From assembly GCA_001799195.1 (NCBI GenBank), contig MGSU01000073.1, positions 1,119-14,596 of the forward strand: DNA of 13,478 bases, read 5' to 3'. The notes under the pieces were generated by a model. It did not search any database. It was not told where the DNA came from and saw only the letters and a list, made by a program, of their open reading frames with translations. The translations under genes and the position numbers were made by a program. This document shows, in pieces, positions 5,084 to 13,478 of the stretch (its first letter is position 1; each line of letters starts with the position of its first letter). This DNA is from Deltaproteobacteria bacterium RIFOXYA12_FULL_61_11 (GTDB lineage Bacteria > Bdellovibrionota_F > JAHFAK01 > YA12-FULL-61-11).

Positions 5084-5184
5084 AGAGAAGTTCGTGGAGG
5101 GGAATTTGCCTCGACCGAGCGGGATTTCTGCGATATACCTTGGAATACAGTGGTTGTTTTGCTTTCGCTCGAGGGTTGAGTAGG

Positions 5185-5442
5185 ATGCCTGAGCTCAGCC
5201 GTTTCCTAGGGATTATTATTCGCATGCGCTATCGCGAACATGCCCCGGCCCACTTCCACGCCGAATACGGTGACTACGAAATCACGGTAGCGATCGATAC
5301 CGGGGTAGTGACCGGGACCTTCCCTCGGAGGGCCCTGAGTGCGGTGCTTGAATGGTTCCAGTTGCACCAAGCAGAGCTGAAAGCCAATTGGGAAGCAGCG
5401 ATGCAACGGAAACCCCTCACGAAGATCGAACCCTTGGAGTAA
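5185..5442 (+). CDS. DUF4160 domain-containing protein
   Basis: The 85-residue product is full length for DUF4160. It begins MPELSRFLGIIIRMRY, has the signature EHAPAHFHAEYGDY (about 18-31), and ends with a helix of the form LEWFQLHQAELKANWEAA. ATG 5185 is preferred over an in-frame TTG at 5140 because family members begin at this point. It is followed after 4 bp by a DUF2442 gene, the usual partner. Such pairs are often listed as toxin-antitoxin-like modules, but I know of no established activity. The module runs opposite to its neighbours and sits between two direct repeats, which suggests it was acquired. No strong promoter is evident; the A/T-richer stretch 5128-5165 is the likeliest place. 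Confidence 0.88.
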   Translation: MPELSRFLGIIIRMRYREHAPAHFHAEYGDYEITVAIDTGVVTGTFPRRALSAVLEWFQLHQAELKANWEAAMQRKPLTKIEPLE

Positions 5443-5446
5443 CCCT

Positions 5447-5737
5447 ATGTTCCTGCGCATTCAGCAAGCTGACTATATAGAAGACTACCAGATCCGTCTC
5501 GTCTTCAATGACGGAAGAGTGGGAGTGGTAGACCTTGCCGCCGAGCTGTATGGTGAGGTTTTCGAGCCCTTGCGCGACCGCGATTATTTCCGCGCCTTTA
5601 CCCTGGATGGTCACACTCTGACCTGGCCGCATGGAGCCGATTTCGCTCCGGAGTTCCTGAGTGAACTGCTGGACCAGGAGAAATTGCCTGGGTCCGCCTC
5701 CGAGGGGCCTGAGACCCAAACAGCACCTATCCGATAA
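5447..5737 (+). CDS. DUF2442 domain-containing protein
   Basis: The 96-residue product fits DUF2442: residues 1-80 carry the pattern YQIRLVFNDGRVGVVDLAAEL, FEPLRDRDYFRAFTLDG and HTLTWPHGADFAPEFL. About 15 C-terminal residues (PGSASEGPETQTAPIR) look unstructured. GGAG lies about 8 nt before the ATG, inside the end of the DUF4160 gene, and only 4 bp separate the two genes. The domain is small and cytoplasmic and is commonly paired with DUF4160; in such pairs it is a candidate antitoxin or regulator. No catalytic motif is seen. Confidence 0.88.
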   Translation: MFLRIQQADYIEDYQIRLVFNDGRVGVVDLAAELYGEVFEPLRDRDYFRAFTLDGHTLTWPHGADFAPEFLSELLDQEKLPGSASEGPETQTAPIR

Positions 5738-5773: not shown

Positions 5774-5836
5774 GGCGACCTCGTGTTGCCGAGGTCGGTA
5801 TAGCGCCGCGGTGGCTGCCTGTCAAAGGCGGGTGAA
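5774..5836. repeat. Direct repeat copy B, overlapping the end of the radical SAM gene
   Basis: This 63-bp stretch is the partner of 5018-5083. It contains the last codons and the TGA of the radical SAM gene, a TTGACA/TATACC promoter and GAGGTCGCC. Where copy A continues with the neuB ATG, copy B continues with TAG (5773-5771 on the minus strand), so its ribosome binding site no longer leads into a gene. Confidence 0.85.
5797..5825 (-). promoter_or_regulatory. Orphan sigma70-type promoter reading into the DUF module
   Basis: On the minus strand TTGACA (5820-5825) is followed by a 17-nt spacer and TATACC (5797-5802). The -35 box overlaps the TGA of the radical SAM gene. Boxes and spacing are identical to the neuB promoter, but 6 of 9 bases differ in part of the spacer. 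Transcripts would run antisense across DUF2442 and DUF4160 towards neuB. Confidence 0.5.
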
Positions 5837-7216
5837 CCTTCGTGGGACGAACCTGAACAATCTCTCCACACGTTCGGCGGCGGCCAGGTATTCCTCGGCC
5901 ACGAGGGTCGCGCGCCGCTCCGCCCGATGTCGGAACCAGGGTCTCAACGGAACCCTGGCCTGCAGCCAGGTCAAGGCCGGGATGAGGCGCCGCAACGTGA
6001 GGACCTCCTCTGCCGTCATGGTCGGCGTGGCCAAGAGCTCATAGGGAGGTTCCGGATTGTGAATGAGGCCCAACGCCGCTGCCCGCCGGCGCAAACCCGA
6101 TCCGGGCAGGACCAGGAGCCGGTTCAGGATGAGTCCGTCCGGTTCGATGGCGAGCGCCCGTTCGAGGGTTTCCAGGAAGGAAGCGCCCCGCTCGCCGGGT
6201 AGACCGTAGACCATCTCTATCTGCACGCGGCAGCCCGGGCACCTGCCGCGCAATTCGCGGAGCATTGAAACCGCTCTCTCACCCACCGAGGCGCGGTTGC
6301 AGCTCGCCTCGACGGCCGGATCGGCATGGGGGAAGGAACAATCAAAATGGAGCCCTCGCCGCACCGTGGCCAACAGCCGGAGGTAGTCCTCGTCGAGGTG
6401 ATCGGGGTTGATCTCGAAATAGCACGTCGTCCGTTCCGGGAGAACCCGGGCGACCAGTTCGAAGATTGCGCCCGCTCGCGCCCTGTCTTCCAGGATATCG
6501 GGATCGGCGAAATAGATGACCTTGACCTCCGGATGCGCGAACAGAACCTCGAGGCTGCGGAGTACAGTCGGGACCGGCACCTTCCTGGGGGGTTGACCGT
6601 TCTTCCAGGAACAGTAGGCGCAGGCCCGGGGACATCCTCTCGTGGTCTCGAGGATCTGCCACGGGGATAAACGCCGGTGGGGGGTCACTTCGACCTGGGA
6701 ACACGCGAACCGTCGCACGTACTCGCCCGTGCCGGGGTTGCTCCGTATGGTGCTCTCCCGGCGCAGGACCAGGTCGGGCACCTCGTCGGGAGGAGGGGAC
6801 GCCAGACCGCAGCGCCAACGCAGGAAGCTGTGGAAGGGCAACTCGCCCTCATCGCGCACTATCAGATCCAGGTAAGGATTGCGCAGGAGCAGCTCTTCGG
6901 CGCGGGCCGAGGCCTCGGGGCCGCCGAGCACGATGGTCGTCGAGGGGGAGCGTTGCTTCACCGCAACAGCCAGCTCCAAGACCGAGCCGATGGTCCAGAG
7001 GGTCGTGCTCAAGCCCAGTACGTCGGGAGTGCCCACGGAACGGAGCATCCGTTGCAATGTTCCCCGATCCGGCCTCGCCGGGAAATCGAAGATCCGGAGG
7101 TCGAGGCGAGCCATGAGCTCGCGGTCCGAGCGGAGCTGCCGCAGCAGGGCATAGGGCGCCAGGGCAGTGAAGCCCCGCTGGTTGAACCCGGCGAGCACGA
7201 GGTCGAGCTTGCTCAT
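5822..7216 (-). CDS. B12-binding-domain radical SAM protein (first)
   Basis: The product is 464 residues. Residues 1-180 look like a cobalamin-binding Rossmann domain, with DVLGLSTTLWTIG and the strand-loop IVLGGPEAS at 95-103. There is no classic DxHxxG, as is common for radical SAM members of this type. The radical SAM core follows, with cluster ligands C195, C199 and C202 in TTRGCPRACAYCSW, and further core segments KVIYFADPDILED and EMVYGLPGE. The C-terminal ~90 residues are helical and Arg/Leu-rich. The family (class B) includes methyltransferases and other B12-dependent enzymes acting on unactivated carbons. ATG 7216 overlaps the stop of the next radical SAM gene as ATGA, so the two form one unit. 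The gene ends inside repeat B. The substrate is unknown; the nearby peptide gene makes a RiPP substrate plausible. Confidence 0.88.
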   Translation of the reverse strand: MSKLDLVLAGFNQRGFTALAPYALLRQLRSDRELMARLDLRIFDFPARPDRGTLQRMLRSVGTPDVLGLSTTLWTIGSVLELAVAVKQRSPSTTIVLGGPEASARAEELLLRNPYLDLIVRDEGELPFHSFLRWRCGLASPPPDEVPDLVLRRESTIRSNPGTGEYVRRFACSQVEVTPHRRLSPWQILETTRGCPRACAYCSWKNGQPPRKVPVPTVLRSLEVLFAHPEVKVIYFADPDILEDRARAGAIFELVARVLPERTTCYFEINPDHLDEDYLRLLATVRRGLHFDCSFPHADPAVEASCNRASVGERAVSMLRELRGRCPGCRVQIEMVYGLPGERGASFLETLERALAIEPDGLILNRLLVLPGSGLRRRAAALGLIHNPEPPYELLATPTMTAEEVLTLRRLIPALTWLQARVPLRPWFRHRAERRATLVAEEYLAAAERVERLFRFVPRRFTRL

Positions 7217-8709
7217 GGTTCGGCCTCCGGGGTGCGCAGGCCCTTCCGGTGCAACCCGGCCAAGGAAAAGGGTAGCCTCCTGCCGAGGAGGTCGCTGAAG
7301 CCCTGTCGGGGCGCAACGAGGGCTTCCAAACCGCGCAAGGCCATGAAACGCGGGTTACCCAGCCGACGGAACAACGTTCTCGCCGAGCGCCTGGCGCTTT
7401 CGCGGTGCAACCAGGTTTGTACGGCGAGGTAGTGCCGGTGCCGGTCGAGGGGCAGGATCGAGGGAGGCCTCGAGCCATCGAGCCCCTCCCCGGGCAGGAC
7501 CTCGACCCCGAGCCGCTCGGTCAACGGCAGTCCGAAATGTTCCTTGAAGAAAGAAAAACCGAGGCCGTCGGGATCAAGGTCGTTCAGGAGGCGCAAGGTC
7601 GCCTCGAGGCCAGCTTCCGTCTCCCCGGGTAAGCCCAGGATGAACCAGCAAAAAACCTCGAGACCGTGCCGCTGCAACAAGCGGATCTGCGAGCGAATGG
7701 TCTCGAGCGACAATCCCTTGGCCACCGAATCGAGCAAGCCCTGGTCGCCGCTTTCGACGCCGACGCGAACCCGGTACAGCCCCGCACGTTTGCAGCGGAG
7801 CAGCAGGCGCTCGTCGAAGCGATCGAGCCGCAGCTTGCAGGACCAGTATACCGGGCCGCAGTCGCGTCGGATCGCCTCCGCCAAGTGGGCCAACCGGTCG
7901 GGGTCGGCATTGAGGGTGTCGTCCAGGAAGGCGAAGCCGCGGGTCCCGAAGGTCTGTTGAACCTCCTGCATCTCGGCGACGACCGAGAGGACCGAACGAT
8001 AGCGAATCGTCCCGCCCCAGAACACGCGGGAGCTGCAGAAGGCGCAGTGGAAGGGACAGCCGCGCGAGGTGACCATCGCCCCGAATTTCCAGGGCGGCAA
8101 GTCGCGCCAGCCGACCAAAGCGGTGCGGTCGAGGATGGGCAACCGATCGAGGTCGGCGAGGAGGGGTCTGTCGGCGTGGTGGACTATACGCCCACCTACC
8201 CTCCGGGAGAGCCCGAGTATTCCCTCGAGAGAACGGCCATCCCTCGTGGCGAGGGCGAGTTCGGTGAGGGTTTCATCTCCCTCACCGCGCACCGCGACAT
8301 CCACTGCCGGATTGGCCAGCACCTGCTCGGGCCGGAGGGTGGGATGGTACCCACCCACGACGGTGACCAAGGAGGGACAGAGCTGCTTGGCCCGGGCGAG
8401 TATGTCCAAGACGACCTGGTACTGGCTCGAGGTCATGGATACCCCCAGGATCCTCGGAGCGAGGGTCTTCAACGTGTTGGTGAACTGGCGGAGGAAGGAG
8501 GTCTCCCAATCCTCCCTTCCACGCCGATCGACAGCCGAAGTCGGGATGTGATAATCTGCGTCGAGTACCGCGGTCGGCACTCCTGCCCGCCGGAGTGCCC
8601 CCGCGAGGGTCAACAGGTTGACCGGCAGGGTCTGGTGTGGTTGCTGCCGAGCCCGGAAATGCGGCGGCTGGAGCAAGAGGACGTAGGGACGATCGCTTGA
8701 CCTGTTCAT
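7213..8709 (-). CDS. B12-binding-domain radical SAM protein (second)
   Basis: The product is 498 residues. The N-terminal domain (about 1-200) shows the B12-binding-type pattern PVNLLTLAGALRRAG, ILGVSMTSSQY and VVGGYHPTLRPE (117-128). The radical SAM core has C218, C222 and C225 in SRGCPFHCAFCSS, then FAFLDDTLN, RVGVESGDQGLLD and WFILGLPGETE, all typical Elp3-like landmarks. A C-terminal part of about 110 residues is basic and helical. On the minus strand ACGGAGCTCC gives GGAG 5-8 nt before ATG 8709, supporting that start. The gene is divergent from the peptidase gene with only 31 bp between starts. It is the first gene of a leftward unit with the 464-residue enzyme. Function beyond family level is not visible; C-methylation or another carbon-centred modification of a peptide is an inference. 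Confidence 0.9.
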   Translation of the reverse strand: MNRSSDRPYVLLLQPPHFRARQQPHQTLPVNLLTLAGALRRAGVPTAVLDADYHIPTSAVDRRGREDWETSFLRQFTNTLKTLAPRILGVSMTSSQYQVVLDILARAKQLCPSLVTVVGGYHPTLRPEQVLANPAVDVAVRGEGDETLTELALATRDGRSLEGILGLSRRVGGRIVHHADRPLLADLDRLPILDRTALVGWRDLPPWKFGAMVTSRGCPFHCAFCSSRVFWGGTIRYRSVLSVVAEMQEVQQTFGTRGFAFLDDTLNADPDRLAHLAEAIRRDCGPVYWSCKLRLDRFDERLLLRCKRAGLYRVRVGVESGDQGLLDSVAKGLSLETIRSQIRLLQRHGLEVFCWFILGLPGETEAGLEATLRLLNDLDPDGLGFSFFKEHFGLPLTERLGVEVLPGEGLDGSRPPSILPLDRHRHYLAVQTWLHRESARRSARTLFRRLGNPRFMALRGLEALVAPRQGFSDLLGRRLPFSLAGLHRKGLRTPEAEP

Positions 8710-8737
8710 GGAGCTCCGTCACCGGTCGAGACCAGCG

Positions 8738-8766
8738 AGTATGAACCAAGTGCCGAATTCCGACAA
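8738..8766 (-). promoter_or_regulatory. Possible promoter for the leftward radical SAM pair
   Basis: On the minus strand TTGTCG (8761-8766), a 17-nt spacer and CATACT (8738-8743) match sigma70 boxes at 4 of 6 positions each, placing a start site about 22 nt before ATG 8709. It overlaps the first codons of the divergent peptidase gene, which would couple expression of the two directions. Confidence 0.3.
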
Positions 8767-9256
8767 CCCCCCGCGCTTCGTCCTCTTCACCGGCTCGTGC
8801 ATGCTCCCGACCCTCCTGCCGGGTTGCCTCTTGCGCCTGGAACCGATTGCGCCCGCTCACGTACGTGCCGGTGCGATCGTCGTGCTGGACCACGGGGGGG
8901 ACCTCCTCTGTCATCGCGTGACCCACCGGTTCGCGTTCGGTCGACACCTCTTTTTCTTGCACAAGGGGGACGCCGAGCGCCTCGCACGGTGGGGCCTTGG
9001 CTCCCACCTCGTCGGCGAGGTCGCCGAAGTCCTTCCGGGAGAGCCCACGAGCGAGCGGCTCACCGATGGGCCGATGCCGGCAGGACCTCTCCCGGTATCC
9101 TGGCTGGCCACCGTGCTCTGCTGGGGACCGGGCCGGAAATTCCTGCTCCCCTTGCTGCGACGCTTTTCTTCGCACCTAAGTTACGGCTCTTCCACGATCT
9201 GGGCCCTCGAACGACCCCGGAAACAACGGCTCCGGCGACAGCGGACCCGTCGGTGA
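8741..9256 (+). CDS. S24/S26-type serine peptidase (signal-peptidase-like)
   Basis: The product is 171 residues from ATG 8741. The motif GSCMLPTL at residues 18-25 places the nucleophile at Ser19, as in the SxMxPTL box of signal peptidase I relatives. It is followed by VRAGAIVVLDHGGDLLCHRVTHR, where His58 occupies the place of the general base in His-type (archaeal/SipW-like) members. FLHKGDAERLARWGLGSHLVGEV matches the late KGD...D and GKV-like boxes. There is no N-terminal membrane anchor, so it is probably cytoplasmic; one weak hydrophobic stretch lies near 120-140. An in-frame ATG at 8708 overlaps the divergent start and also lacks a ribosome binding site; neither start has a strong one. 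Similar soluble S24/S26 proteins occur in RiPP loci, suggesting leader removal. The stop overlaps the next gene's GTG. Confidence 0.8.
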   Translation: MNQVPNSDNPPRFVLFTGSCMLPTLLPGCLLRLEPIAPAHVRAGAIVVLDHGGDLLCHRVTHRFAFGRHLFFLHKGDAERLARWGLGSHLVGEVAEVLPGEPTSERLTDGPMPAGPLPVSWLATVLCWGPGRKFLLPLLRRFSSHLSYGSSTIWALERPRKQRLRRQRTRR

Positions 9257-10689
9257 GGACGAGCCCCTTCCGCGTAGTCCTGGTGGCCCTTGGCAACGAC
9301 CATGCCCTCGGCGTGCGCCACTTGCACGCCTCTCTTGCAGCCCGGGGGGTGGCCGCCTCGATGCTCTTCGTGGAACCGGATTACCGGCAACTCAGTCACG
9401 GGCCCTGGTTCTCGGCCGACATCGACTCCCTGCTCGCGTTTCTCGGGCCCGGCGATCGCACCCTGGTCGGCCTCTCGCTCGTCACCTTGACCTTCCCCCA
9501 GGCCGTGGCACTGAGTTCGGCGCTCAGGGCGCGCACCTCGGCGAAGATCCTCTGGGGAGGGGTTCATCCCACCCTGTGCCCCGAGGCTTGTCTCCCTCAT
9601 GCCGATGCGCTCTGCCTCGGGGATGGGGAAGAAGTCCTCGCCGTCTATCTCGACCATCTGGCAGGCAAGCCTCTCGAGAAGCCGGTGCCGGGCCTGCTCT
9701 TGGCAGGTTCACCGGTTCCTCGACAACCGATGAGGGCTTGGAGGGCAGAACTCACCAGCCTGCCCGCGCCGTCCTACGAGGCTGCCGACGCCTGGCACAT
9801 ACGTCGGGGTAGGTTCTACCGAGGGGACCCCTTGCGCGGAGAGACCCGGCACCACCTCATCGCCTCGCGGGGGTGTCCCCTGGCCTGCAGTTTCTGCTGC
9901 AACGAGCGGCTCCAGGGCGCCCTCGGGCCCGACCGCCGCTACCGGACCCTGGCTCCACGGAGGGTCCTCGACGACCTCCACGCCGTGCTCCGCGAACGCC
10001 CGGGTATTTCCCGCGTCATGTTCTGGGATGACATCTTCTATCCCTCGCAAGCTCAGTTCCTGGAATTCTGCGAGCTCTACGAGCAAGAACTCGGGCTGCC
10101 CTTCTTCTGCCACGTCCATCCCCAGTGGTACGATCGGGCCCGGCTCGAACGCTTGCGCCGGTGTGGGTGCGAGGCTGTCGGTATCGGCCTGCAATGCGGT
10201 TCGGAACTTCTGCGACGCGAGGTGTACCGGCGGCCCGAGAGCAACCTCGAGCTGGCAGCGCTCTGCGCGGAGGCCGCCGACCTTGGTCTCGACCTCCAGT
10301 ACGATCTTATCGTCGACAGTCCCTTCGAGAACGACGCGGACAGGATGACCACCGTGGACTTCCTGTTCCGCCTCCCGAGGCCCGCCCGTTTGTTTCTCTA
10401 TCCTTATACGGAGTTCCCGGGCACGGTCCTCGGAGAGGGTTCATGGACCGGCTCAGCCGTGGTTCGATCCTCGACGCACGCCGAGGACCGGGTCGGACGC
10501 GAGTTCCAGGTTGCCCTCTCGGGTATGGCCTGTTGGGGAAAACGTACCCGCGCTCTCGCCCGTTGGGTTCGCCACCGGCGTCGTCCACTGGCGCGGCGTT
10601 CGGTCATAGCCCTGGCGCGCATCCTGCGCGTGGTCCACCTCGGACTCAATCCTGGGAGAAGGTTGTCGTGGCGGGCTTGGCCGAGTTGA
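9253..10689 (+). CDS. B12-binding-domain radical SAM protein (third)
   Basis: The product is 478 residues. I start it at GTG 9253, which overlaps the peptidase stop as GTGA and opens directly into the fold (RTSPFRVVLVALGND). The same frame is open back to 8797, but that part is Arg/Pro-rich and is just the other frame of the peptidase gene. Residues 1-190 are B12-binding-like, with LVGLSLVTLTF and LWGGVHPTLCPE (100-111). The radical SAM core has C208, C212 and C215 in SRGCPLACSFCCN, with an extra adjacent Cys at 216, then VMFWDDIFYP, AVGIGLQCGSE and DLIVDSPFEND. The tail is strongly basic. This third B12-type enzyme is distinct in sequence from the two leftward ones. It ends exactly where the convergent SPASM gene ends. 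Confidence 0.88.
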   Translation: MRTSPFRVVLVALGNDHALGVRHLHASLAARGVAASMLFVEPDYRQLSHGPWFSADIDSLLAFLGPGDRTLVGLSLVTLTFPQAVALSSALRARTSAKILWGGVHPTLCPEACLPHADALCLGDGEEVLAVYLDHLAGKPLEKPVPGLLLAGSPVPRQPMRAWRAELTSLPAPSYEAADAWHIRRGRFYRGDPLRGETRHHLIASRGCPLACSFCCNERLQGALGPDRRYRTLAPRRVLDDLHAVLRERPGISRVMFWDDIFYPSQAQFLEFCELYEQELGLPFFCHVHPQWYDRARLERLRRCGCEAVGIGLQCGSELLRREVYRRPESNLELAALCAEAADLGLDLQYDLIVDSPFENDADRMTTVDFLFRLPRPARLFLYPYTEFPGTVLGEGSWTGSAVVRSSTHAEDRVGREFQVALSGMACWGKRTRALARWVRHRRRPLARRSVIALARILRVVHLGLNPGRRLSWRAWPS

Positions 10690-12021
10690 TCAGACCCCGG
10701 GCACTCCCAGGGTCGTGTCGACCCACTTCCGGACATGGCCGAAGAACTTCCTGAGCCCCTCGCAGTACCAGGTCTTCCCTTCCCAGCGCTCGTCCTTGCC
10801 AAGGGTCACGTGGTAACTGCAGCTCCCCCAACAGAGGGGGAACACCTCGCACGTGGCCCGACAGTCCTCCAAGAGCGCATGCCTGCGGTCCAGGAATTCG
10901 AGCCTTCTCCGAGAGTTGACGATTTCCGAGAGCTCCTGCTCCACGAGGTTGCCGAAACGATACTCCTCCCGGGTGAACGGCGTGCTGCATAACCAGGCAT
11001 CGCCATTGGTCTCGAAGCACAGGAGGCGATCCCCGCAGTTGGTGTAGCACTCCTCGATCGGTAGCCCCAGGAGGCCGCGCAGGGGATCGTGGAAGTTCGT
11101 GATCCTCAGGCTGCCGGGGGTGTAGGTGCTCACCCAGCGGTCGAACAGCTCGATCAAGTAGTCGGCATAGTGCAAAGGAGGACAGCGCATCGCCTCGTCG
11201 ACGTGGTACGAGGGCAGGATCTTCACGCCCAGGGCGGAGCGCAAGCCCTGCTCCTCCCAGAAGTCGAGGAGGGCTCGCGGTGAGGGCCGGTCCCCAGGAG
11301 CGAAGACGCTGATCACGGCATAGGGGATACTCTGCTCTTGGAGCAAGTGGAGGACCTGGACGAGGTTCTGGTAGGGAGAAGCGTGTTCCCCGCGATAGCG
11401 GCGGTGTTGGTCGAAGGTCTCGCGAGGGCCGTCGAGGGCGAGGTTGACGATGAAGCCGTGGGCCTTGAAGAAGGCACACCACTCGGCGTCGATCAGGGTC
11501 GCGTTGGTCTGCAGGATGTGGCTCACGCGCACCGAGGAGGGAAGCCAACGGGCGAACAGGTCGAGGGCCCTGCGGTAGAAGTCCAACCCGGCCAGCATCG
11601 GTTCGCCGCCGTGCCAGTTCACCACGAAGTGCTCGCGGTCCTCGAGGTGGGGTCCGATCTGCCGGCAGATCCGTTCCACGAGGTCGAGAGTCATGACCGG
11701 CTGGGAGGCGAGGTGGGCGTACCGGAGGGTTCGCTCGGTATTGGTGGTGATGTTCAGTTGATAACAATAATCACACCGGAGATTGCAACGCGGCCCGACG
11801 GGTTTGAGGATGATCATGCCGAAGGGGAACTCGCGATGCCGCGCCACGGTTGACCGACCTTCGACGTGGCGTATGGCCCGGGCATAGTAGTCGGCCTCGT
11901 CTCCGACCAATCGGTCGAGGAGCGCGCGGAGGTGCCTCCGGGACTCAGAGGCGAGGGCCGAGACCGGCGTCGTCCTCAAGCCCCGAACGGCCTTCATGCG
12001 GCCCTGCAGTCTGGGATCCAT
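10690..12021 (-). CDS. Radical SAM/SPASM peptide maturase-like protein
   Basis: The product is 443 residues. The radical SAM cluster ligands are C79, C83 and C86 in RCNLRCDYCYQ, with NWHGGEPML at 135-143, a sulfatase-maturase-type landmark, and VNLALDGPRETFDQHRRY near 192-209. The C-terminal SPASM region has C325, C329, C335, C345, C387, C391, C397, C401 and C420, enough for two auxiliary 4Fe-4S clusters. Relatives (anSME, and many RiPP maturases) oxidise side chains or form C-C, C-S or C-O links in peptides. ATG 12021 follows GGAGGAGGT at 9 nt and lies 2 bp past the HprK-like stop; an in-frame start at 12105 would lie inside that gene. In this operon the likely substrate is the 55-residue peptide at 12981-13148. 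Confidence 0.93.
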   Translation of the reverse strand: MDPRLQGRMKAVRGLRTTPVSALASESRRHLRALLDRLVGDEADYYARAIRHVEGRSTVARHREFPFGMIILKPVGPRCNLRCDYCYQLNITTNTERTLRYAHLASQPVMTLDLVERICRQIGPHLEDREHFVVNWHGGEPMLAGLDFYRRALDLFARWLPSSVRVSHILQTNATLIDAEWCAFFKAHGFIVNLALDGPRETFDQHRRYRGEHASPYQNLVQVLHLLQEQSIPYAVISVFAPGDRPSPRALLDFWEEQGLRSALGVKILPSYHVDEAMRCPPLHYADYLIELFDRWVSTYTPGSLRITNFHDPLRGLLGLPIEECYTNCGDRLLCFETNGDAWLCSTPFTREEYRFGNLVEQELSEIVNSRRRLEFLDRRHALLEDCRATCEVFPLCWGSCSYHVTLGKDERWEGKTWYCEGLRKFFGHVRKWVDTTLGVPGV

Positions 12022-12023
12022 GG

Positions 12024-12968
12024 TCACGGGACCTCCTCCCGGTGGAATAGTTGATCGACGAGTTCCCGGCGCTCCAATACCGAACCGCCCTTGAGCAGCC
12101 GGCACCGTGCGGTGCCCTTGAGCCGCGCCAGACCGGGGAGCAGCGCACCGAGGCCCTCCAGAAAACCTTTTTTCGACGTGAAGTAGGAGGTCTCGAGAAG
12201 GTGGTCCCAGGCCTCGGCCGCGCCAAGCTCCCGGAAAACCGCGGGTAGGCCGGTGGTGGCCGGAGCGAGGAAGACCACCTCGGTGAGGGGCGTCGGTTCT
12301 CCCCAGTGCCAGGTCGGAAAGAGCTGTTCGGGGGGGCAGTACTGTTTCTTCCCAGGTCGGGGTTCTCCCCGGTCGGGAGCTCGACCCTTCGGTTTCTCAG
12401 TAGGGATAAGTCCCAAGGCCGTGGGTACCGGTAGGCACCGGAGACTCGGCAGTTCCAGAACCGCGAGATCGTCGGCGAGGAGGCTCCAATCCCGCTCGAG
12501 CAAGGCCATGGCCAAGGTGGTCTTGCCGGCTCCGGAAGGACCGGTGAGGATCGCCGCTCGCCCGGCCTTTGCCACGACGGACCCGTGCAGCACCAGGTGT
12601 CCCTTGCCACGCAATTTGGAGGCCAGGGTACCGGTCAACAGCCGACCCAGGTTCTCCTCGAAATGACCGTCCACCTCGAGGGCGAAGCCGGCGGTGCCCT
12701 GGCCTACCCGACAACTCGTTCCGACAAGGTGCAGCGAGAGGTCGGCCTGGCCGTGGTTCGGGCCTCGGTGCGGCACGACCAGGTAACGGCGCAGGATCGC
12801 GGCGACGACCTCGGCCCCGAGGTTGGTGGCTACACGGAGTTCGGTATCGGCGATGACGCACGAGTAGCACTCATCCTCGAGAGGAGCTCTGGAGGCTTGG
12901 ATTGGAGAAGGTGTGCCCGCGAGGGGGACGTTGTTGTCCCTCGCCCTCGACCCTGAGCAACGCTGCAC
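12024..12968 (-). CDS. HPr-kinase-like P-loop ATPase (HprK-related)
   Basis: The product is 314 residues from GTG 12968. The HprK core is clear: VLHGSVVAKAGRAAILTG leads into the P-loop GPSGAGKT at 143-150, with His128 at the place of the conserved HprK histidine, and SLLADDLAVLE at 162-172 matches the acidic ADD motif. The N-terminal 120 residues resemble the extra domain of HprK-related proteins in peptide clusters, not true HPr kinase. The C-terminal half is divergent (KKQYCPPEQLFP, YFTSKKGF). Such proteins accompany PqqD and precursor peptides; the paeninodin-type lasso kinase phosphorylates its peptide, so kinase action here is possible. The start is 12 bp after the peptide gene, with only a weak GGA upstream. 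No HPr partner is present. Confidence 0.85.
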   Translation of the reverse strand: MQRCSGSRARDNNVPLAGTPSPIQASRAPLEDECYSCVIADTELRVATNLGAEVVAAILRRYLVVPHRGPNHGQADLSLHLVGTSCRVGQGTAGFALEVDGHFEENLGRLLTGTLASKLRGKGHLVLHGSVVAKAGRAAILTGPSGAGKTTLAMALLERDWSLLADDLAVLELPSLRCLPVPTALGLIPTEKPKGRAPDRGEPRPGKKQYCPPEQLFPTWHWGEPTPLTEVVFLAPATTGLPAVFRELGAAEAWDHLLETSYFTSKKGFLEGLGALLPGLARLKGTARCRLLKGGSVLERRELVDQLFHREEVP

Positions 12969-12980
12969 GAGTCCGGCCGG

Positions 12981-13148
12981 TCAGTAGCAGTCGGACTCGA
13001 GGTGAGCACCGCCGTGGACGAGAACCCCCATGGACTTCAGATTCTGGTCCTGCAGCTCTCGAAGCTCTTCCTGGGTGTAGGTACGCAGGATGGCGGGGGG
13101 GGTATAGAGGGGTTTGTCTTCCGGGCGATCGCGGTCGGTGAGCGTCAT
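12981..13148 (-). CDS. Candidate RiPP precursor peptide, 55 residues
   Basis: This small gene begins at ATG 13148-13146, inside the pqqD stop (ATGA overlap), and has a strong GGAGGT 7 nt upstream. The product is acidic in its first half. Residues 13-20 read PLYTPPAI, followed by LRTYTQEELRELQDQNLKSM, an amphipathic helix-prone stretch. The Tyr-x-x-Pro element at 15-18 recalls leader motifs bound by PqqD-like domains. The tail from Gly41 carries VLVHGG at 42-47, then AHLESDCY at 48-55. The GG pair at 46-47 could mark a cleavage site. Cys54, Tyr55, Ser52, Asp53 and His49 are reactive candidates in a short core. There is no signal peptide. Size, place between pqqD and the HprK-like gene, and composition support a precursor. 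The core boundary and chemistry are inference. Confidence 0.78.
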   Translation of the reverse strand: MTLTDRDRPEDKPLYTPPAILRTYTQEELRELQDQNLKSMGVLVHGGAHLESDCY

Positions 13149-13360
13149 GGTAGCACCTCCAAGAATGTGGCGTTCACGAGTTCGGCGACGAAGGAACCGA
13201 CCTCGGTGCGGACGGTTGCCTCCAAGGGTGGCTGCGAGAAGGCCTGCCCGAGTTCAGCCGCGATGGCGGAGAGACTGCGCGTGCCGTCGCACAGCTCCCA
13301 CACGCGGGCAGCGGTACCGTTGATGACGTGGAGCCGTCCCGTCGGCAGGTGGTACAACAA
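13145..13360 (-). CDS. PqqD-like peptide-binding protein (RRE), 5' end disrupted or mis-started
   Basis: Seventy-one residues are readable from TTG 13360. The PqqD fold is plain: LLYHLPTGRLHVINGTAARVWELCDGTRSLSAIAAELGQAF, then an acidic helix and VAELVNATFLEVLP. PqqD-like proteins bind leader peptides and deliver them to radical SAM enzymes. Usual length is about 90; here the first strand is missing. The same frame continues upstream as TFRTHTLTQAVSSDEV, which looks like the missing part, but it has no ATG or GTG before a TGA at 13417-13415. A different frame opens at GTG 13425 (LPENPLLGR). One base added in the A4 run (13403-13406) or the T4 run (13412-13415) would join the two into a full PqqD. 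So a frameshift, a sequencing error, or a true TTG start (GAGGT is close) are the options. It overlaps the peptide gene by ATGA. Confidence 0.78.
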   Translation of the reverse strand: MLYHLPTGRLHVINGTAARVWELCDGTRSLSAIAAELGQAFSQPPLEATVRTEVGSFVAELVNATFLEVLP

Positions 13361-13414
13361 GACCTCGTCCGAACTGACCGCTTGGGTGAGGGTGTGCGTC
13401 CTAAAAGTGGGTTT

Positions 13415-13477
13415 TCAGGCAGCACAGCGAGATTCCCAGAAGTCCTCGAAGCGGGCAGAGAGGGAGACACAACGCAA
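13415..13477 (-). CDS. Possible 3' end of an upstream gene (partial)
   Basis: Twenty codons are open from the right edge to a TGA at 13417-13415, ending SARFEDFWESRCAA. The GTG at 13425 that could start pqqD overlaps this end by 11 nt, the coupling style used elsewhere in the window. The piece is too short to recognise. It could instead be in-frame N-terminal pqqD sequence cut by a nonsense or frameshift change. Confidence 0.35.
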   Translation of the reverse strand: MRCVSLSARFEDFWESRCAA

Positions 13478-13478
13478 G

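Follow-up and report, generated by a model that had tools for sequence, protein, structure and literature searches.

A coupled operon around a small peptide gene

We examined a 13,478-nucleotide stretch of DNA from Deltaproteobacteria bacterium RIFOXYA12_FULL_61_11 (genome G000; G000:C73:1119-14596), here called the window, which carries a gene cluster that probably makes a ribosomally synthesized and post-translationally modified peptide (RiPP). A preliminary description had placed such a system at 5822-13425, with one peptide gene among a SPASM enzyme, three B12-type radical S-adenosylmethionine (SAM) enzymes, an HprK-like kinase, a PqqD protein and an S26 peptidase. All of these genes are present, as judged from Pfam and NCBIfam matches, alignment and gene context. 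The extent needs correction, since host sequence ends at 13389 and from 13390 onward the window consists of an insertion sequence; neither this insertion nor a Ser-to-Cys change in the peptidase had been noticed in the preliminary description. The right edge of the window is also the end of the contig, and the cluster is therefore cut off there.

PqqD, a 55-residue peptide, an HPr-kinase-like peptide kinase and a radical SAM/SPASM enzyme form a single coupled operon on the minus strand. The stop codon of the PqqD gene (13145-13389 for the portion downstream of the insertion) overlaps the ATG of the peptide gene (12981-13148) as ATGA; the kinase gene follows (12024-12968, with an uncertain start codon), and its stop lies 2 bp from the start of the SPASM gene (10690-12021). 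On the plus strand, the gene for an S26 signal-peptidase-like protein of the SipW/archaeal type (8741-9256, with an alternative upstream ATG at 8708) overlaps the GTG start of rSAM3 (9253-10689) as GTGA, and the stop of rSAM3 abuts the convergent stop of the SPASM gene. About 30 bp from the S26 start is that of rSAM2 (7213-8709, minus strand), whose stop overlaps the ATG of rSAM1 (5822-7216, minus strand), again as ATGA. rSAM1, rSAM2 and rSAM3 are B12-binding radical SAM proteins.

The peptide gene encodes a short candidate precursor alongside putative modifying enzymes, and it is distinguished by its coupling to PqqD, by a G+C content by codon position (0.68/0.39/0.77) of the same pattern as in the neighboring genes, and by a leader related to those of other peptides. 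This leader, KPLYTPPAILRTYTQEEL, contains the motif YxxPx[LI] (YxxPxI within KPLYTPPAILRTYTQEELREL), and the core region ends in VHGGAHLESDCY. YxxPxL is the motif with which lasso peptide leaders bind the RiPP recognition element (RRE) (PMC10368454). The corresponding RRE here would be PqqD, which scores 49.9 bits against a Pfam cut-off of 23.4, its gene being the one split by the insertion sequence. Among all small open reading frames (ORFs) of the loci that we retrieved, the best non-self matches of the window peptide (YTPPAILRTYTQEELRE) were two peptides of genome G310, YAAPRVLATYSKEELEE and YVKPMVLATYSKEELEE (E value 0.018). Fourteen leader and core positions of the window peptide match both, and the leader TY[ST]xEELxE is common to all three; K12, Y15 and P18 are invariant in an alignment with three cassette peptides. 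The two G310 precursors (locus L158, G310:C238, 12097-12570) have GCGCGC-rich tails and adjoin a cassette of PqqD, SPASM, HprK and a cysteine-type S26 protein. Degenerate-pattern scans of 84,980 species, with the precursor alignment and with the SPASM enzyme, returned no close relatives of either.

The kinase carries the H...GxxGxGK[ST]...DD motif of RiPP precursor kinases of the BsfK/ThcoK type (H128, G143, G146, G148, K149, T150, D166 and D167) with spacing identical to that of BsfK, a proven lasso precursor kinase whose activity is raised by its PqqD-like RRE partner (PMC10368454). The SPASM enzyme, with the motif CNLRCDYC and C-terminal cysteines that match the auxiliary clusters of the anaerobic sulfatase maturase anSME, belongs to the anSME/cyclophane-synthase group; its best solved relatives in the PDB are anSME (8e-34) and the cyclophane synthase ChlB (5e-25). 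If it were itself a sulfatase maturase, the peptide ORF beside it could be spurious. TIGR03942, the sulfatase maturase model, is its best NCBIfam match (223.6 bits), and an Asp aligns near the catalytic Asp of anSME. However, this score is under the curated cut-off of 349.45, the window has no sulfatase gene, and the peptide has no CxPxR-type site. Together with the overlap of the peptide start with the PqqD stop, the coding codon pattern and the match of the leader to other cassettes, these findings led us to reject the sulfatase maturase assignment, and we regard this explanation as highly improbable. Scores against other curated maturase models also fall under their cut-offs (DynA, 163 of 450; AmcB, 135 of 425; GrrM, 122 of 310), and a plasmid search with the SPASM enzyme gave matches at the sulfatase-maturase level only. 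We prefer a cross-link as its reaction; the exact bond is a guess.

No Pfam family matched the S26 protein, and NCBIfam model TIGR02228 matched it weakly (24.9 bits, cut-off 51.85); the protein can be aligned from end to end with the S26 peptidases that related cassettes encode. H58, R59, K75, G76 and D77, in the segments CHRV and KGD, are invariant in our alignment A1. The M and P of the GxSMxP motif are likewise kept, and its Ser nucleophile is replaced by Cys (GSCMLPT). Cys occupies this position also in loci L158, L163 and L164, and Ser does so in most of the set. The simplest reading of these residues is that the protein would be a Cys-His peptidase, and it is possible that it is a dead enzyme kept for binding. 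Whether cysteine can serve as the nucleophile of S26 enzymes could be tested directly on the Ser-to-Cys signal peptidases of such cassettes.

An insertion sequence within PqqD and the second half of the cluster

The final 89 bases of the window (13390-13478) recur without any difference at the ends of five other contigs, with the breakpoint always at the same base. They form the left end (GGGTGTGCGTCCTAAAA...) of a multicopy insertion sequence, inside which the contig ends. Besides the window, the element is found on contigs C325, C43, C271, C57 and C148. A pattern search of G000 located the opposite terminus (GGGTGTGCGTCAGCAAA) at eight contig ends, and ends of the element lie likewise on C55, C72, C160, C186, C220, C261, C313 and C316. 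When left ends were paired with right ends, six insertions could be reconstructed, all of them flanked by perfect 9-bp target duplications; G000 thus holds at least six paired copies, which break the assembly, and one of these is inside a CRISPR array (C148/C72).

The duplication in the window, CTTGGGTGA (13381-13389), is matched only by the end of C316, which carries its reverse complement, TCACCCAAG. Across the reconstructed empty site the PqqD frame is uninterrupted and has a Met start (MFDGTTLLRRSQDVVTQAVSSDEVLLYHL...), which provides strong independent support for the pairing of C73 with C316. The insertion point is about 18 codons into PqqD, the initial codons being on C316.

Located through the matching duplication, the C316 flank (examined as L197, C316:7500-27198) adds two B12 radical SAM genes, a non-B12 radical SAM gene and a methyltransferase gene to the cluster, and so extension to the right, which the preliminary description had proposed, did uncover further maturases. 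Next to PqqD is rSAM5, a B12-type radical SAM gene (L197 17865-19670, minus strand) whose B12-binding score of 30.1 bits is just under the Pfam cut-off of 32.1. Beyond it lie the second non-B12 radical SAM gene (16820-17908, plus strand; ScmF 42.8 bits and ScmE 20.1 of 400), a class I methyltransferase gene assigned from a weak match (16045-16974, minus strand) and rSAM6, a B12 radical SAM gene (14654-16129, minus strand). This brings the radical SAM genes of the whole cluster to five of the B12 type and two others.

The insertion raises the question of whether the pathway has become non-functional in this lineage, such that nothing is made. The element interrupts PqqD after about codon 18 with an exact duplication, as do the five other copies at their sites, and there is no in-frame ATG or GTG start downstream of it and ahead of the PqqD domain. 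Decay is harder to reconcile with the remaining reading frames, all of which are open, and with the frame from a TTG at 13360, which still matches positions 4-65 of the PqqD model (49.2 bits), so that residual PqqD function is possible. The element could also be recent, polymorphic or promoter-supplying. We see the balance between decay and retained function as about even, and decay would be compatible with the ancestral function proposed below. Because PqqD is split in the assembled genome, product formation in the sequenced strain may be low or absent, barring translation restart in PqqD or an element-free subpopulation. The split gene is a caution that gene content alone is no proof of a working system in a sequenced strain, and that contig ends can conceal both a transposon and half a cluster.

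Recurrence of the core cassette and its relation to known systems

Searches with HprK and S26 over 145-386 genomes, followed by reading of 10-20 kb around the matches, found 18 loci, spread over 15 genomes and 12 families, in which PqqD, SPASM, HprK and S26 occur together (up to 386 genomes searched). As the loci were reached through HprK or S26, this count speaks to recurrence, not frequency. These core cassettes mostly include a small peptide with the leader motif, its ORF starting in the manner of MxxKKxYxKPxIxxVxL.... When motif ORFs were defined by K or R followed by [YF]xxPx[LIVM], a Met start, a length of 30-110 residues and the strand of the cassette, cassettes held 19 of them in 126 kb and the sequence outside cassettes 7 in 221 kb, a 4.8-fold enrichment in density to be discounted somewhat for loci picked partly for these genes and for the shortness of the motif. 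A few of the 19 ORFs inside cassettes are clearly due to chance. Given the leader motif, the gene coupling and the recurrence of the core with motif peptides, a RiPP system with a PqqD, SPASM, HprK and S26 core appears well supported, and to this extent the preliminary description, which had envisaged a leader-binding PqqD, a SPASM maturase, a kinase and a peptidase, is borne out. Two further loci, L068 (HprK-PqqD-radical SAM) and L073 (lasso with kinase), served as comparators only. L073 (G098:C164, 6016-9896) is a lasso-type cluster with a PqqD-like gene, likely B2 and cyclase genes and an HprK-like kinase gene; its lasso-type precursor is KKPYHSPQLTVYGTVEQITRL.

In three cassettes, L069 (1148-4384), L070 (10289-14155) and L145 (5097-8360), a large secreted protein lies between HprK and S26. 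That of L069 is a PorU-like C25 peptidase, and those of L070 and L145 are assigned as its counterparts from position and sequence. Their presence would fit a model in which the four core proteins act on a large secreted protein or in a cell-surface pathway instead of on a small peptide. The cluster studied here has no such protein, however, and most cassettes have a motif peptide by PqqD or SPASM, which makes this model improbable.

Other core cassettes (for example L155, L157, L158 and L163) resemble ours in having the same four kinds of protein, adjacent genes and a peptide with a K..[YF]xxPx[LIV] leader. They differ in that they have between one and three radical SAM genes of the non-B12 type, that most of their cores are rich in Cys and that their S26 proteins are mostly Ser-type. 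Five B12 radical SAM genes, three in the window and two past the insertion, set our cluster apart from the other cassettes, among which such a gene is found in L163 only.

Among described systems, the bsf clusters for phosphorylated lasso peptides (BsfA/BsfB1/BsfK, PMC10368454) likewise combine a PqqD-like RRE, an HPr-kinase-like kinase and a YxxPxL-type leader. Unlike them, our cluster has radical SAM enzymes in place of the B2 protease and asparagine-synthetase-like cyclase, both absent from the window and from 12.5 kb past the insertion, and we therefore rejected assignment to the lasso clusters. The cyclophane (triceptide) and dynobactin clusters (ChlB, DynA, GrrM and XyeB) likewise have a SPASM enzyme from this anSME-related group; ours differs in scoring below the cut-offs of their models and in its stand-alone PqqD, extra kinase, S26 protein and B12 enzymes. 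Several B12 radical SAM methylases in one RiPP cluster are already known for bottromycin and polytheonamide, where two or three such enzymes act on one precursor (PMC5682303). Their motif is Cx7Cx2C, whereas that of our cluster is Cx3Cx2C (Cx4Cx2C in rSAM5), and they further differ in having another precursor, another leader system and no HprK.

SynChlorMet and HPr-rel-A cassettes also pair PqqD-like with HprK-like proteins, and SynChlorMet includes radical SAM/SPASM enzymes. The resemblance to SynChlorMet that had been suggested for this locus did not hold up, as ScmC (TIGR04249, 20.3 of 125 bits), ScmD (TIGR04248, 20.3 of 100) and, on the window SPASM, ScmE (12.9 of 400) were all far under cut-off, and ScmF was not among the 25 best models for the window SPASM. 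HPr-rel-A (TIGR04352/TIGR04353) was rejected as well (HprK_rel_A, 50.1 of 200 bits; PqqD_rel_X, 28.0 of 35 bits). A search of the accessible literature, subscription papers excluded, turned up no published system that unites these components, and nothing on SynChlorMet, on HprK with radical SAM and a precursor, or on an S26 peptidase with radical SAM and a RiPP.

B12 radical SAM enzymes and a proposed pathway

rSAM1 (CPRACAYC), rSAM2 (CPFHCAFC) and rSAM3 (CPLACSFC) each have B12-binding and Radical_SAM domains over the Pfam cut-offs and a Cx3Cx2C motif. The resemblance of rSAM1 to the solved C-methyltransferases TokK (1e-17) and CysS suggests that it is probably a C-methylase. rSAM2 and rSAM3 are AprD4-like and BchE/HpnJ/ApyD-like, the nearest models of rSAM2 being BchE/HpnJ/ApyD and its solved relative AprD4. 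Pairwise identities among the B12 proteins are 24-33%, with rSAM2 and rSAM6 the closest pair, and so these are mostly not recent duplicates.

Action of these enzymes on the peptide is the part of the preliminary proposal that the results support weakly. The B12 genes flank the core on both sides, and in L163 (G367) a B12 radical SAM gene overlaps the Cys-type S26 gene of a PqqD/peptide/SPASM/HprK locus; the closest match of the L163 enzyme is rSAM5 (125 bits), with which it shares a CxxxxCxxC motif. Of the 18 loci with the four-gene core, L163 alone has a B12 radical SAM gene. The neighborhoods of rSAM1 homologs (L104-L112) contained no RiPP genes, nor did they point consistently to another pathway. 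On these grounds the locus could consist of two unrelated neighbors, a RiPP cassette and a set of B12 radical SAM genes that serve another small molecule or lipid, all the more as B12 radical SAM proteins are common in G000. Such independence is at odds with the translational coupling of rSAM3 to the core S26 gene, with the abutting rSAM3 and SPASM stops, with the 30-bp spacing of the rSAM2 and S26 starts, and with the B12 gene directly across from PqqD whose best match sits beside a Cys-type S26 gene. We consider two unrelated neighbors unlikely. From the coupling, the packing and L163, we think it likely that the peptide is a substrate of at least some of the B12 enzymes.

Several further points weigh against the model of one integrated cluster. 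The relatives of rSAM1 and rSAM2 elsewhere lie among unrelated genes, PqqD is interrupted in the assembled genome, and no exporter was seen at the locus. Searches with HprK, SPASM and rSAM1 (145-386 genomes) gave distant homologs only, and phylum searches covered two genomes of the host phylum, a rare one, and three of that of G310; no close relative of the complete cluster was found in these searches, which leaves the link between the B12 genes and the peptide without support from conserved synteny. Single-sequence structure predictions were unusable, with predicted local distance difference test (pLDDT) values of 35 for S26 and 31 for HprK. With these set against the evidence above, all of it drawn from sequence, we still judge it probable that the locus is a RiPP cluster in which the 55-residue precursor, PqqD, the SPASM enzyme, the kinase, the S26 protein and the B12 enzymes work together.

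The reactions, B12-enzyme substrates and cleavage that we infer for such a pathway would be as follows. The 55-residue product of 12981-13148 would be bound through K-x-x-Y-x-x-P-x-I in its leader by PqqD, acting as a stand-alone RRE that makes the core available to the modifying enzymes. The SPASM enzyme would most likely form a carbon-carbon or similar cross-link in the core, for which the HGGAH/ESDCY region is the likeliest target, and the HprK-like kinase would phosphorylate one of the serines of the core, S39 or S52. The B12 radical SAM enzymes, three in the window and two past the insertion, might methylate unactivated carbons or alter them in other ways, rSAM1 being the likeliest methylase. 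Finally, the leader would be removed by the S26 protein, whose center is probably of the Cys-His type. By analogy, the combination may act as a phosphorylating RRE system joined to a SPASM cross-linker and a multi-B12 tailoring set, parts known separately from BsfK, from ChlB and DynA, and from bottromycin and polytheonamide.

If this is correct, one and the same peptide would undergo phosphorylation, cross-linking by a SPASM enzyme and several radical reactions that depend on B12, and a recurrent PqqD/SPASM/HprK/S26 cassette with a recognizable precursor motif could be mined in bacterial lineages that have never been cultured. More tentatively, and with more doubt than confidence, we raise the idea that the cluster represents a new RiPP class, defined by a stand-alone RRE, an HPr-type kinase, an anSME-like cross-linker, up to five B12 and one further non-B12 radical SAM enzyme, and a signal-peptidase fold turned cysteine protease, with the four-gene core being a widespread undescribed cassette of poorly sampled phyla.

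Beside the cluster, at 5140-5737 on the plus strand, are two neighboring small ORFs with a codon pattern unlike that of their neighbors, which resemble a pair of the DUF4160/DUF2442 type. G000 is generally rich in radical SAM proteins, with 58 matches to one radical SAM/SPASM model in a genome scan. A PqqD match at G000:C338:15094-17330 shares an open frame with a radical SAM domain and adjoins a second radical SAM gene, perhaps constituting a further RiPP locus, and another PqqD match lies at C7:11024-11221. A second RiPP-like spot in G000 is at L143 (G000:C40, 467-1453), where a Ser-type S26 homolog (E value 6e-14 to the window S26) is opposite a peptide, MSKEKPPYEPPRAVVFASPASSSASKKCTTGGSADQSCTAG..., that carries repeated CTxG/CxxG units and is followed by a metallophosphatase.

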